In this document: positions 1 to 34,210 of the stretch, in pieces
Numbering within the stretch: position 1 is the stretch's first letter
How the letters are laid out: every line of letters starts with the position of its first letter
Origin: Prochlorococcus sp. AH-736-L23
GTDB lineage: Bacteria > Cyanobacteriota > Cyanobacteriia > PCC-6307 > Cyanobiaceae
DNA: 64,000 nucleotides
Reading direction: 5' to 3'
Assembly (NCBI GenBank): GCA_028141225.1
Contig: JAOIPS010000003.1
Coordinates: 18,380 to 82,379, forward strand
The notes under the pieces: model-generated
The model's database searches: none
What the model was told of the DNA's origin: nothing
Seen by the model: only the letters and a program-made list of their open reading frames with translations
Translations under genes and position numbers: made by a program

Positions 1-40
1 TGAGAATCTATTGCAATAAGAAGTTTTTTAGTGCATAATT

Positions 41-59
41 GATAATAATTCTCATTATC
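41..59. promoter_or_regulatory. Fur-box-like site upstream of the Crp-family regulator
   Basis: GATAATAATTCTCATTATC matches 16/19 of the classical Fur box GATAATGATAATCATTATC; perfect 7-bp arms TGATAAT/ATTATCA (40-60); 12 bp before the ATG at 71. Confidence 0.6.
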
Positions 60-70
60 ACATTTATTTA

Positions 71-658
71 ATGAATTTCCATAATTATGGGGAATCTCCG
101 TCAAAATCAGTAAGGATAGTAACTGGGCAATCCGTATTAATAGACCCTTCATCAAGGCCAAAAGGAACATGCCTAGAAGTTGAAAGCGGAATTGCAAGAG
201 TTTATTGTCCTTGTGAAGAAACTGAAGGAATGACACTCGCATTTTTACAATCAGGAGATCAATTAAGAACGGACCTTTTATGTAGCGAAGGTGTCTGTGT
301 TGAAGCATTAACCGATTTGTCATTTCATAGCAATGTAAATATTGATGAGAATATTGGTTTCGATGCAGTTAATGAATGGACTTTGCAGCTCCTTAGGATA
401 AGACATCTTGGCAATGCAGAACAGCGATTACAAGCGTTGTTTTCAATACTAGTAAATCGTTTAGGAAGAAGATGTGGGCAATGGTGTGAGTTGCCTTTTA
501 GGTTAACTCACGAAAGAATTGGTGAGTTAATCGGTTCTACACGCGTAACATCAACAAGATTAATTTCTAAATTAAGATCATCTGAGTTACTAATAGCTCC
601 TCTCGGAACACAAACAGTCAGTGTTGCACCTTCTTTTATTGAAACATCGCCACTTTAA
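71..658 (+). CDS. Crp/Fnr-family transcriptional regulator
   Basis: C-terminal HTH-like segment RLTHERIGELIGSTRVTSTRLISKL and effector-domain-like N-terminus; ORF track. Confidence 0.8.
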   Translation: MNFHNYGESPSKSVRIVTGQSVLIDPSSRPKGTCLEVESGIARVYCPCEETEGMTLAFLQSGDQLRTDLLCSEGVCVEALTDLSFHSNVNIDENIGFDAVNEWTLQLLRIRHLGNAEQRLQALFSILVNRLGRRCGQWCELPFRLTHERIGELIGSTRVTSTRLISKLRSSELLIAPLGTQTVSVAPSFIETSPL

Positions 659-662
659 AAAC

Positions 663-953
663 ATGAAGGAATCACAAACACTCACTAATAGCCTGTTAAT
701 GGAAGTTGATATTTTATCGAATAGACTCAAAAATATAAAACAATCTTTCAATGCAACCAATAATAAAGCATTAAAGGAAAGATTATTTTCTGAAAACAAA
801 AATATTTTTAAAAGAGTAAACGAGATTTATAAAATAGCTGAGTTATTAAATAAAAAAAATAATGAAAAATTTAACTTTTCTAAGTTACTTGTTGAAATAA
901 GCAAAAGAATATTGAATGAAAATAAATTTGAAACAAATTTATTTTTTCTTTAA
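663..953 (+). CDS. hypothetical protein (start moved to ATG 663)
   Basis: In-frame ATG at 663 immediately after the upstream stop; overlaps the 3' end of convergent ferritin by 15 nt. Confidence 0.5.
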   Translation: MKESQTLTNSLLMEVDILSNRLKNIKQSFNATNNKALKERLFSENKNIFKRVNEIYKIAELLNKKNNEKFNFSKLLVEISKRILNENKFETNLFFL

Positions 954-1493
954 ATCACTATCTATTAATAAGATTGCAGAAGGTTGATTAGAAGCAAACT
1001 TTACTTTGCCAAGTATGTTTGCGAATTCGTCTTCTGATTTTGTTTGAGCATCTATGATTGGATCTAAAAATACGTTGGTTCTTGTATCGGAAATTCTTTC
1101 TGAAATAGAATAAAGCTGTTGCAGAGATGAAGTTAAATCAGCTTCCATGTTGAAAGAATAAGAAATCAGATCCTCTATTGAATCCCATTTTTGAACGGGT
1201 GCAGGTATTTCGTCTAATTTTACGCTTTGTCCTCTTGCGATTAAGTAATCTGCAAACTTCTGAGCATGTTCCATCTCACCTTGAGATTCACTTAGAAAAT
1301 GAGAAGCGAATCCATTTAAATCACGTTCTTGAAACCATAGATACATAGAAAAATATTGAACATTAGCATATCTTTCCATAGTTAGATGTTCAAAAATATT
1401 GTCTAATAAACTATTGTCTATCGGTTGAGCAACAGCTCTCCCAGATGGACCAAAATTGATTAATTTTTTGGTTTTTAAATTATTATCAATCAT
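939..1493 (-). CDS. ferritin
   Basis: Ferritin-like helices (ERYANVQYFSMYLWFQERDLNGFASHFLSESQGEMEHAQKFADYL); start set at MIDNNLKTKK (ATG at 1493). Confidence 0.88.
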   Translation of the reverse strand: MIDNNLKTKKLINFGPSGRAVAQPIDNSLLDNIFEHLTMERYANVQYFSMYLWFQERDLNGFASHFLSESQGEMEHAQKFADYLIARGQSVKLDEIPAPVQKWDSIEDLISYSFNMEADLTSSLQQLYSISERISDTRTNVFLDPIIDAQTKSEDEFANILGKVKFASNQPSAILLIDSDLKKK

Positions 1494-1579
1494 TTTCAAA
1501 AAATAGAAACTATACAAATAATACAACATTTTGTATAAATTAGTAATAAATTAATACTTTAAATTAAATTAAATAATAT

Positions 1580-1598
1580 GATAATGAAAATCAATCGC
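1580..1598. promoter_or_regulatory. Fur-box-like site between ferritin and the Cys-rich small ORF
   Basis: GATAATGAAAATCAATCGC, 15/19 match to the Fur consensus; 10 bp upstream of ATG 1609 and ~87 bp upstream of the ferritin start. Confidence 0.4.
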
Positions 1599-1608
1599 AA
1601 TACTATAA

Positions 1609-1731
1609 ATGAATTTAGAGTACAGTTTTTCTGAACTGCTATTAACTAATAAAATATATAAATGTAAAAAAAAGAAATGTAAAAAGAAAAAATGCTCTAA
1701 TTGGAAGGGGGGTAAGTGTAATTGCCTCTAA
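1609..1731 (+). CDS. putative 40-aa Lys/Cys-rich microprotein (MNLEYSFSELLLTNKIYKCKKKKCKKKKCSNWKGGKCNCL)
   Basis: ATG-to-TAA ORF read by hand in a 244-bp ferritin/ABC intergenic gap; 5 Cys in the last 22 residues; below the ORF-track cut-off. Confidence 0.45.
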   Translation: MNLEYSFSELLLTNKIYKCKKKKCKKKKCSNWKGGKCNCL

Positions 1732-1737
1732 AAAAAT

Positions 1738-2796
1738 CTACATATATTCCTTATATGCCCCAGGATATAAAAAATAGTAACTATTTTTAGTTATATAAAT
1801 AGAACATTTATCACCATTATTAAGGAGATTATTAATATCAGTTCTAACCCTTAATATGTTTCCATTTATAGTTACTTTGTATATGAGAAATTCTCCAAGA
1901 AATTCTTTAGATACAACAATCGCATCACCAGATTCTGATCTTTTAATTGAAAGAAATTTAGGCGAAATTGACATACTATTAATATTTTTATTTTTCAAAT
2001 ATTCTGAACTATTTATTTCACCTAAACAAGAAATATATGAATTACCATTTTTTTTGAGTTTAATAATATTATTGCCCAAAATAAAACTACTAACAAATAT
2101 AGACTTTGGATTATTTATGATGTTAATTGGTGTATCAATTTGATGTATTTTCCCCTCATTCATAACGGCGACTTTATCGCAAATTGACATTGCCTCTTCT
2201 GGATCATGAGTAACCATCAATCCACTTGCATTACAACCTTTTAGAATATTAGGAAGTTCACTTCTCAATTTTAGCTTGACATGCATGTCAAGACTACAAA
2301 AAGGTTCATCTAATAAAATAAAATTTGTGCCTGGAGCAAGTGCTCTCGCAATTGCGAGTCTTTGTTTTTGGCCTCCAGATAATTCATGTGGGTACCTTCC
2401 CTCAAAACTTTTAAGACCAACAACATTTAGTAAATAATCAACTCTGGATCTGTCTTTTTTGTTTTTCAAACCAAACATTACATTTTCCAAAACAGTTAAA
2501 TGAGGGAAAAGTGCGTAGTCTTGAAAAACCATGCCAATATTTCTTTTCTCAGGACTAAGAAATTTTTTTCTACTTGAAATTTCCCTATCATTTAGAGAAA
2601 TTCGCCCTTTAGAGGGATATTCGAACCCTGCGATTAATCTTAAAAGAGTTGTTTTTCCGCAACCTGAAGGACCAAGCAAACCTAACAATTCTCCATTTTC
2701 AATTTTTAGGTTAATTTCGTTTAATATCCAATTTGAACTTTCTCGCTTATCATATTTATGATGCAGATCATCAATTATTAACGCATCATTTTTCAC
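1738..2796 (-). CDS. futC: iron(III)-type ABC transporter ATP-binding protein (FutC/FbpC-like)
   Basis: Walker A GPSGCGKTT, signature LSGGQKQRLAIARAL, Walker B FILLDEPFCSLD, C-terminal regulatory domain; iron neighbourhood. Confidence 0.75.
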   Translation of the reverse strand: MKNDALIIDDLHHKYDKRESSNWILNEINLKIENGELLGLLGPSGCGKTTLLRLIAGFEYPSKGRISLNDREISSRKKFLSPEKRNIGMVFQDYALFPHLTVLENVMFGLKNKKDRSRVDYLLNVVGLKSFEGRYPHELSGGQKQRLAIARALAPGTNFILLDEPFCSLDMHVKLKLRSELPNILKGCNASGLMVTHDPEEAMSICDKVAVMNEGKIHQIDTPINIINNPKSIFVSSFILGNNIIKLKKNGNSYISCLGEINSSEYLKNKNINSMSISPKFLSIKRSESGDAIVVSKEFLGEFLIYKVTINGNILRVRTDINNLLNNGDKCSIYITKNSYYFLYPGAYKEYM

Positions 2797-5260: not shown

Positions 5261-5800
5261 TTGTTATTAAGTAAAAATCTAAAAAATTTGGCATTAAATA
5301 TTCCCAACTTATTATCAATATCTCGCCTTTTCCTTGTATTCCCATTAATACTTTTTTTAGAAATTAACAGACCTTTTTATGTTTTTATATTAATTATTAT
5401 TGGTGGTTTAACTGATTATTTTGACGGGCTAATTGCGAGGAAATTTAATCTTAAAACAAGATTAGGAGCTATCCTCGATCCCTTAAGCGATAAAGTATTT
5501 TATCTAATTCCTTTAACCTTCCTTTGTAAAAATAATTTTATACCCTTCTGGTCTTTGTCATTAATTTTATTAAGAGAATTAATTATCTCTAGCCTGAGGA
5601 ACTCTACAAAAAACGGTTTACCAGCATCTATGTTAGGTAAATATAAAACATTTTTCTTTTTTATTTCAGTAATTACCTTCTTTACACCATTAAAAATTAG
5701 CTTATTGAATAATTTGGCTTTAATTTTTTATTGGTTAGGATTCATCCTAACTTTTCTGACTTTATTAGGCTATTTAAGAATTAAAAAGAATATTATCTAA
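5261..5800 (+). CDS. pgsA: CDP-diacylglycerol--glycerol-3-phosphate 3-phosphatidyltransferase
   Basis: NIPNLLSISRL and CDP-alcohol phosphotransferase motif DYFDGLIARKFNLKTRLGAILDPLSDK. Confidence 0.92.
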   Translation: MLLSKNLKNLALNIPNLLSISRLFLVFPLILFLEINRPFYVFILIIIGGLTDYFDGLIARKFNLKTRLGAILDPLSDKVFYLIPLTFLCKNNFIPFWSLSLILLRELIISSLRNSTKNGLPASMLGKYKTFFFFISVITFFTPLKISLLNNLALIFYWLGFILTFLTLLGYLRIKKNII

Positions 5801-32899: not shown

Positions 32900-34210
32900 T
32901 TAGTTATTTTTGTCCTCTTCTACCAAAGAAAACAATTTTTCAACGATTTTCAAAGAAACCTGTCTTTCTTCTCTTGATTGAGGACTTCTCAACTTGGTAA
33001 CAGGCGTATGTAGTATTTTATTGATAATTCCTTTAGTCAGCGCTTCCACAACTTTTCTTTCTCGAGCCGAAAAATCTGGTCCCATCCTACTAAGTGCTTT
33101 TTGCAATTCCTCTTTTCTAATTAGCTCCAAATCTGATCGAAGTTTATTAATTACTGGAACCGCCTCTAAACTTGCCCACCACTCTAGAAAAATGATCCTT
33201 TCTTCTTCTACTAAAAATTCCGCTTCCTTTGCTATTTTTTGTCTAAATTCTTGATTTCTTGAAACTACCTCTTGCAAGTCATCCACATCAAATGATTTTA
33301 CAAATTCATGTTGTTTGACATCATTAGATATATTCCTCGGTACACCAATATCAATAAATTTAAGTCTATTACTCAAATTTAATTTTTCAATTTTTGCCAG
33401 ATCAATAATTGGCTCTTCTGAAGCAGTACTGGTGAAAACAATTGAAGATAGTGATATGTTTTCTTCTAATTCGTTTAAACCTCTACAAAGAATCTTTAAA
33501 TCAGGAAAGTCTTGAGCAAGATTTAATGCTCTATCAATATTTCTATTTAAAAGGATAAGTTTATGACATCCTTTTGATTTTAAATGAGTTATTAAAAGCC
33601 TACTCATTCGTCCCGCGCCAACAACAAGAACATTCTCTGATTCCAAACTTGCAAGAGTATCAAAACCCTTTTCTTGTCCGATTTTTAATTGAGCAAGTTC
33701 TACCGCTGCTGAACTAATTGATACGGCTCCAGTTCCTAAATTTGTTTCAGATCTTACTTTTTTACCTGTACTAACTGATTGGGTTAATAATCTATTAAGA
33801 ATTGGTCCAGTAGATTGATTCTCTTGACCTAATCTCATCATTTTTTTTACCTGCGAAAGGATTTGTCCTTCTCCTAAAACGAGGCTATCGAGTCCTGCCG
33901 AGACTTTCATCAAATGCAAAACTGCTTCTTCCTGTCTAAAGCAAAAAAGATGTGGATTTAAATCTTCAAAAATAATTCCAGAATATTCTGATATAAATTC
34001 TTTTATAGATGAAATTCCAGTATTTTTATCCTTTACTAGTGCGTATATTTCCAGCCTATTACAAGTACTTAAGATCGACACCTCTAACACATCAGAGAAA
34101 GCTTTTAATGCTTTCAATGATTCTGTGATGGATTGGTCAGGAATACTTAACTTCTCACGCACTTCAACAGGTGCCGTGCGATGACTCAGTCCGACGACAA
34201 CAATATGCAT
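32900..34210 (-). CDS. hemA: glutamyl-tRNA reductase
   Basis: VVGLSHRTAPVEVREKL, STCNRLEIYA, SLVLGEGQILSQVK. Confidence 0.97.
   Translation of the reverse strand: MHIVVVGLSHRTAPVEVREKLSIPDQSITESLKALKAFSDVLEVSILSTCNRLEIYALVKDKNTGISSIKEFISEYSGIIFEDLNPHLFCFRQEEAVLHLMKVSAGLDSLVLGEGQILSQVKKMMRLGQENQSTGPILNRLLTQSVSTGKKVRSETNLGTGAVSISSAAVELAQLKIGQEKGFDTLASLESENVLVVGAGRMSRLLITHLKSKGCHKLILLNRNIDRALNLAQDFPDLKILCRGLNELEENISLSSIVFTSTASEEPIIDLAKIEKLNLSNRLKFIDIGVPRNISNDVKQHEFVKSFDVDDLQEVVSRNQEFRQKIAKEAEFLVEEERIIFLEWWASLEAVPVINKLRSDLELIRKEELQKALSRMGPDFSARERKVVEALTKGIINKILHTPVTKLRSPQSREERQVSLKIVEKLFSLVEEDKNN

Follow-up and report, generated by a model that had tools for sequence, protein, structure and literature searches.

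A conserved four-cysteine micro-protein of the Cyanobiaceae as a possible Fur-controlled accessory of ferritin in iron release

The gap between a ferritin gene and an iron transporter ATPase gene of Prochlorococcus sp. AH-736-L23 contains a reading frame of only 40 codons, and this raises the question of whether a protein is encoded there and, if so, what such a protein might do beside a ferritin. The window, i.e. the whole stretch of DNA that was analysed, comprised 64,000 nucleotides, and the features around the reading frame are collected in Table 1. A 40-aa ORF running from ATG to TAA, lying between ferritin and an Fe-type ABC ATPase and starting 10 nt after a Fur-box-like sequence, had been proposed in a sequence-only reading of this DNA. 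The ORF was found exactly as written, with the translation MNLEYSFSELLLTNKIYKCKKKKCKKKKCSNWKGGKCNCL followed by a stop codon; both neighbours were confirmed by their Pfam matches (PF00210 and PF00005, respectively), and a Fur-box-like 19-mer (1580-1598) was present that ends 10 nt before the ATG.

Table 1. Positions of the micro-protein gene, its conserved parts, its neighbours and the Fur-box-like sites in the window.
Feature	Position	Strand	Evidence
Strong Fur-box-like site upstream of Crp-family gene	40-59	+	14/14 to 7-1-7 box; 16/19 to 19-mer
Crp-family regulator gene, conserved neighbour	71-658	+	PF13545, PF00325; conserved context
Ferritin gene, SynFtn class, divergent neighbour, presumed partner	939-1493	-	PF00210, E 2.6e-29; best PDB matches 7pf9 and 5ouw, ~1e-53
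Fur-box-like site TGATAATGAAAATCA over predicted -10 element GATAAT (1580-1585)	1579-1598	+	15/19 to E. coli Fur consensus; 12/14 to 7-1-7 box
40-aa micro-protein gene	1609-1731	+	ATG to TAA; orthologues in 166/200 same-genus genomes and across the Cyanobiaceae
Cys19 codon, private to this genome	1663-1665	+	S/N/D/Y/R in other orthologues
Conserved core, codons 20-39, KKKKCKKKKCSNWKGGKCNC	1666-1725	+	Selection on codons 20-40; invariant residues
Cys24 codon, invariant	1678-1680	+	
Cys29 codon, invariant	1693-1695	+	
Cys37 codon, invariant	1717-1719	+	
Cys39 codon, invariant	1723-1725	+	
FutC-like iron ABC transporter ATPase gene, convergent neighbour	1738-2796	-	PF00005, E 3.8e-38

A protein is indeed encoded by the 40-aa reading frame, and purifying selection on it is strong. 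In a comparison of 92 distinct Prochlorococcus orthologues, dN/dS was 0.019 for the core codons 20-40 (pN 0.009 vs pS 0.352) and 0.58 for the weakly constrained N-terminal codons 2-19, and the other two reading frames were without a comparable selection signal. From this difference the C-terminal 20 residues were taken as the functional unit, which was supported by a locus (L097, genome G191) where two TAA codons break the N-terminal half and the core is intact. Orthologues were searched for in 200 genomes of the same genus at E values up to 10; they were matched in 166, mostly at E 1e-12 to 1e-22, and in 62 of the 66 near-complete genomes among them. The gene was also carried by loci L031-L060, which had been fetched via ferritin independently of the peptide, with one exception at a contig end. 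In the earlier reading, frameshifts in orthologues were held to speak against the gene, and what was found was codon-level selection on the core. The caveat that Lys runs are naturally encoded by A-rich DNA, and with it the explanation of the frame as a functionless chance ORF, was weighed against the same data. The intergenic region of the ORF is 80% A+T, where Lys runs arise easily, and an ATG ORF of at least 40 aa appeared in 5.6% of trials when this region was shuffled; an ORF with at least five Cys appeared in 0.02%. A chance ORF is ruled out by these shuffles, by the codon-level selection on the core and by conservation, the core with its four invariant Cys persisting in GC-rich freshwater Synechococcus and Cyanobium, and its probability is regarded as negligible. 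A structured RNA as the main explanation was likewise rejected, since no Rfam match was obtained and the core evolves with codon periodicity.

Across the Cyanobiaceae, the core followed the pattern KKKxC-Kxx-KC-S-[NKHA]-W-K-G-G-x-C-x-C, and 47 of 47 distinct cores had all four Cys together with the Ser, Trp and Gly-Gly. The pattern with which these cores were retrieved from all fetched loci was anchored on Trp, Gly-Gly and Lys and left Cys free; the Prochlorococcus cores end too early for the anchored pattern, and their Cys residues were checked separately. A five-Cys layout (CK4CK4C-x7-CxC) had been described from the sequence alone, with non-conserved Cys named as a point on which the description could fall. 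Four of the five Cys proved invariant, and the first, at residue 19, did not stand; because this residue varies in other genomes, the conserved layout is C-x4-C-x7-C-x-C. The description of a small cationic, metal- or thiol-reactive, possibly iron-responsive peptide appears to fit the data and is supported in part, by the four invariant Cys, a net charge of about +9, the conserved Fur-box-like site and the iron-gene neighbours. Family members ranged from 27 to 50 aa, with lengths of just 27-30 aa in some Synechococcus. The AlphaFold prediction (pLDDT 71-79) shows a helix at the N-terminus and a short, hairpin-like core at the C-terminus and is uninformative on any metal site. With six family members, no Pfam family, including metallothionein or zinc-knuckle families, was matched at E up to 10, and searches of NCBIfam, PHROG, PDB sequences, profiles and folds gave no family and only insignificant low-complexity matches.

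Matches were obtained in 51 of the 59 Cyanobiaceae genera in the family sample. In the phylum-wide search of 392 cyanobacterial genomes, every strong match (E <1e-4) fell within the Cyanobiaceae, and no homologue was found in the approximately 335 cyanobacteria outside this family, where the best match had an E value of 0.004. Carriers in the GTDB collection included Prochlorococcus single-cell genomes, P. marinus MIT 9401, Synechococcus and Cyanobium. A phage or mobile origin was ruled out, since no match was found in 50,697 phage records or in IMG/VR. In Prochlorococcus MED4, 113 new small ORFs of 33-130 aa were reported by Steglich et al. in 2008 (PMC2518516). They resemble the present gene as small Prochlorococcus ORFs, and its MED4 orthologue may be among them.

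The Prochlorococcus orthologues adjoin ferritin in the loci examined. When the short paralogue was left out, 34 of 36 more distant loci were found to adjoin ferritin, FutA, FutB, FutC, a Crp-family regulator, a porin or a ZnuA-like gene, and these neighbours stand in several different arrangements. A 96-aa ORF without a Pfam match lies between the Crp-family gene and ferritin in the window (663-953, + strand), and its cluster had 51 members among the loci examined. A second, shorter version of the small gene, MGDKKKKKKCKKKKCSAWKGGKCICHGQ, was observed in L135, L141, L153 and L159 at about position 2480-2590; it belongs to genera g56 and g39, lies away from iron genes, and no Fur box was detected for it in these four loci. 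The small gene is missing from the ferritin-FutC locus of those g56 genomes that were examined, and G202 (g4) retains the short version as a degraded remnant. Two ferritin and micro-protein loci (5506-5625 and 32997-33116) were found on one single-cell contig, G093:C3, and the doubling is probably an assembly artefact.

For the Fur-box-like site, the 19-mer was scored against the E. coli Fur consensus, and a second score was calculated against the 7-1-7 box TGAKAATNATTMTCA. In the window, TGATAATGAAAATCA spans 1579-1593, and the promoter prediction for the window was no better than for shuffles. Of 40 further Prochlorococcus loci, 39 had a 19-mer match of at least 15/19 some 90 nt ahead of the core, the exception being L079. 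Among the 36 more distant loci, a 7-1-7 box of at least 12/14 stood close upstream in 15, and no clear Fur box was found within 220 nt of the core in 21. Ferritin lies 1.6 Mb from one of the box-bearing distant loci, L142, and is downstream and convergent in two others, L154 and L165; because of these positions of ferritin, the site in those genomes is to be assigned to the small gene rather than to ferritin. By sequence match, a Fur-box-like site stands at the predicted promoter and is conserved in relatives, as is looked for in a gene of the Fur regulon. The site includes GATAAT in the window and TATAAT in several Synechococcus, and its overlap with a -10 element is consistent with repression by Fur; from this layout we infer that expression of the small gene should peak at low iron. 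The site in front of the Crp-family gene (Table 1) suggests that this regulator beside ferritin is iron-controlled as well.

Co-occurrence was scored for one gene pair, the small gene and ferritin, in 151 evenly drawn genomes (150 that were at least 98% complete, together with the window's own partial genome). Both genes were present in 120 genomes, neither in 29, ferritin only in 2 and an intact small gene only in none (totals of 122 for ferritin and 120 for the intact small gene). The association gave a Fisher value of 5e-29 with relatedness ignored, and p was ~1.4e-12 when the labels were permuted within genera only, a test that used 20 of the 29 negative genomes and the genera, at least seven, showing both states. 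An almost perfect match of the two genes had also been obtained in an earlier set of 47 chosen genomes. Ferritin without an intact small gene was found in G202, with its degraded remnant, and in G341; the ferritin-less G385 carried a decayed copy in which the core Trp codon is now TGA. The two genes are separated by 84-1650 kb in at least 16 closed genomes; their co-occurrence is therefore not accounted for by adjacency alone, and co-deletion of neighbours as the sole cause is excluded. The intact small gene was present only where a ferritin, of the 24-mer type, was present, which is the distribution looked for in a ferritin partner, and the link of the micro-protein to ferritin is well supported. 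Since its presence depends almost perfectly on ferritin, its role is narrowed to ferritin. The co-occurrence could also come from a shared iron lifestyle. Several observations count against reading the protein as a ferritin accessory, among them that in genus g56 the small gene is shorter and away from ferritin and that in G202 it is degraded yet ferritin remains. The small gene is also carried by genomes whose only ferritin is FtnA-like, and specificity for the partner is therefore broad or indirect. SynFtn-like and FtnA-like ferritins both occur in the Cyanobiaceae, sometimes in one genome (L161 of G256 and loci of the L154/L165 type), and the micro-protein co-occurs with either subtype.

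The ferritin of the window was closest to SynFtn of Synechococcus CC9311 (PDB 5ouw, 7pf9) and belongs to that class, the occurrence of which PMC8743623 describes as nearly restricted to marine Synechococcus and Prochlorococcus. The micro-protein, itself no ferritin, has a lineage range that agrees with the range of SynFtn. In the accessible parts of PMC8743623 and PMC7762939, no accessory protein of SynFtn is mentioned. As described in the latter, the iron of bacterioferritin is mobilised in other bacteria by Bfd, a small Fe-S protein, and loss of bfd traps iron in the store (PMC7762939). A search for Bfd with the Fer2_BFD profile (PF04324) gave no match above the cut-off in 46 Cyanobiaceae genomes, the control genomes giving matches, and none of six micro-protein family members matched this profile. 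In Bfd, the Cys residues of the [2Fe-2S] site are arranged as C-x-C ... C-x2-C. This arrangement was not found in the micro-protein, where C-x4-C-x7-C-x-C is invariant, and its Cys spacing was unlike that of Bfd or of any catalogued Fe-S or zinc family. Both are small Cys4 proteins tied to a cage of the ferritin superfamily, and on the hypothesis set out below both would be produced under iron shortage to free iron from the store; the micro-protein differs in being shorter (27-50 aa) and very basic and in having no sequence match to Bfd. The partner of Bfd is the haem-containing Bfr, whereas that of the micro-protein is presumed to be a haem-free ferritin of the Ftn/SynFtn type. Replacement of the small gene by bacterioferritin plus Bfd in genomes where it is absent was rejected, since weak Bfr-like matches do not segregate with the small gene and Bfd was not found in the 46 genomes. 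SmtA-type bacterial metallothioneins are likewise small, Cys-containing, cyanobacterial and set in a metal-homeostasis context; the micro-protein differs from them in having only four conserved Cys, set within a basic frame that is fixed, in having no Pfam match, and in a Fur-box-like site in place of an SmtB-type control site.

On this evidence the micro-protein is read, at a probability of about 0.4, as a lineage-specific, Fur-controlled accessory of ferritin that most likely promotes iron release. How it would act on ferritin we infer as follows, the release step being hypothesised by analogy with Bfd. The working part would be the 20-residue cationic Cys4 module, with its C-x4-C-x7-C-x-C layout and invariant Ser, Trp and Gly-Gly. 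When iron is plentiful, the gene would be repressed by Fur, as judged from the conserved site, and when iron is scarce the micro-protein would be made. Its Lys-rich face may then dock on the acidic ferritin shell; the net charges are opposite, about -9 per ferritin subunit and about +9 for the micro-protein. The Cys4 site, as a bound Fe or Fe-S centre or as redox-active thiols, would transfer electrons or iron, and the ferric iron of the store would thereby leave ferritin as Fe2+. This role would be equivalent to that of Bfd with bacterioferritin, Bfd not having been found in the 46 Cyanobiaceae genomes searched.

The same co-occurrence, promoter-site and charge evidence would also suit a Fur-repressed silencer of ferritin, i.e. 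a basic Cys4 peptide made at low iron by which iron entry or the ferroxidase step is blocked, or ferritin is marked for turnover, and scarce iron is kept out of storage. Stoichiometric inhibition suits a peptide of 27-50 aa, but the four invariant Cys point to a metal or redox site and not just to a plug, and such a silencer is considered rather unlikely. The C-x-C and C-x4-C motifs, and the ZnuA-like or porin neighbours in some Synechococcus, agree with a metallothionein-like thiol buffer for Fe, Cu or Zn within an iron-stress regulon, tied to ferritin via shared iron/oxidative physiology. SynFtn is reported as copper-responsive (PMC7762939), which favours this buffer and allows a non-iron role for the micro-protein. 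The Cys number only four, however, the fixed Ser-Trp-Lys-Gly-Gly frame is needless for a simple buffer, and the small gene is tied almost absolutely to the presence of ferritin, by which the buffer is made quite improbable.

A zinc-knuckle-like, RNA-binding regulator of ferritin or iron mRNAs, as a protein counterpart of iron-stress sRNAs, may be seen in the Lys-rich composition, the single invariant Trp, the Cys4 site, the Fur-box-like promoter site and the dependence on ferritin; this is a slender possibility, since no Pfam zinc-knuckle or other RNA-binding match and no PDB structural match were obtained. For an iron chaperone delivering Fe2+ to ferritin at iron excess, with Fur acting as an activator or being irrelevant, the dependence on ferritin and the conservation of metal-ligand residues can be cited, but the Fur-box-like site lies over the predicted -10 element in Prochlorococcus and over TATAAT in several Synechococcus, which is a layout for repression, and the chaperone is the most doubtful of these four.

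Relative to all of them the preferred reading remains that of an accessory to iron release. Its wider form, in which a new Cys4 micro-protein family would serve haem-free Ftn-type ferritins as a dedicated partner under Fur control and would govern iron release from them in a Bfd-like manner, is put forward still more tentatively. In any case, Pfam, NCBIfam and PHROGs have no entry for a gene that is nearly universal in the Cyanobiaceae lineage. Much of the photosynthesis in the ocean is due to Prochlorococcus and Synechococcus, for which iron is often limiting. A tiny protein with a near-perfect dependence on ferritin is a concrete and testable candidate for a part in the retrieval of iron from the unusual SynFtn in these organisms and in its release from Ftn-type ferritins without Bfd, and if this is true, a Bfd-like role would be filled by it in some of the ocean's most abundant photosynthetic organisms.
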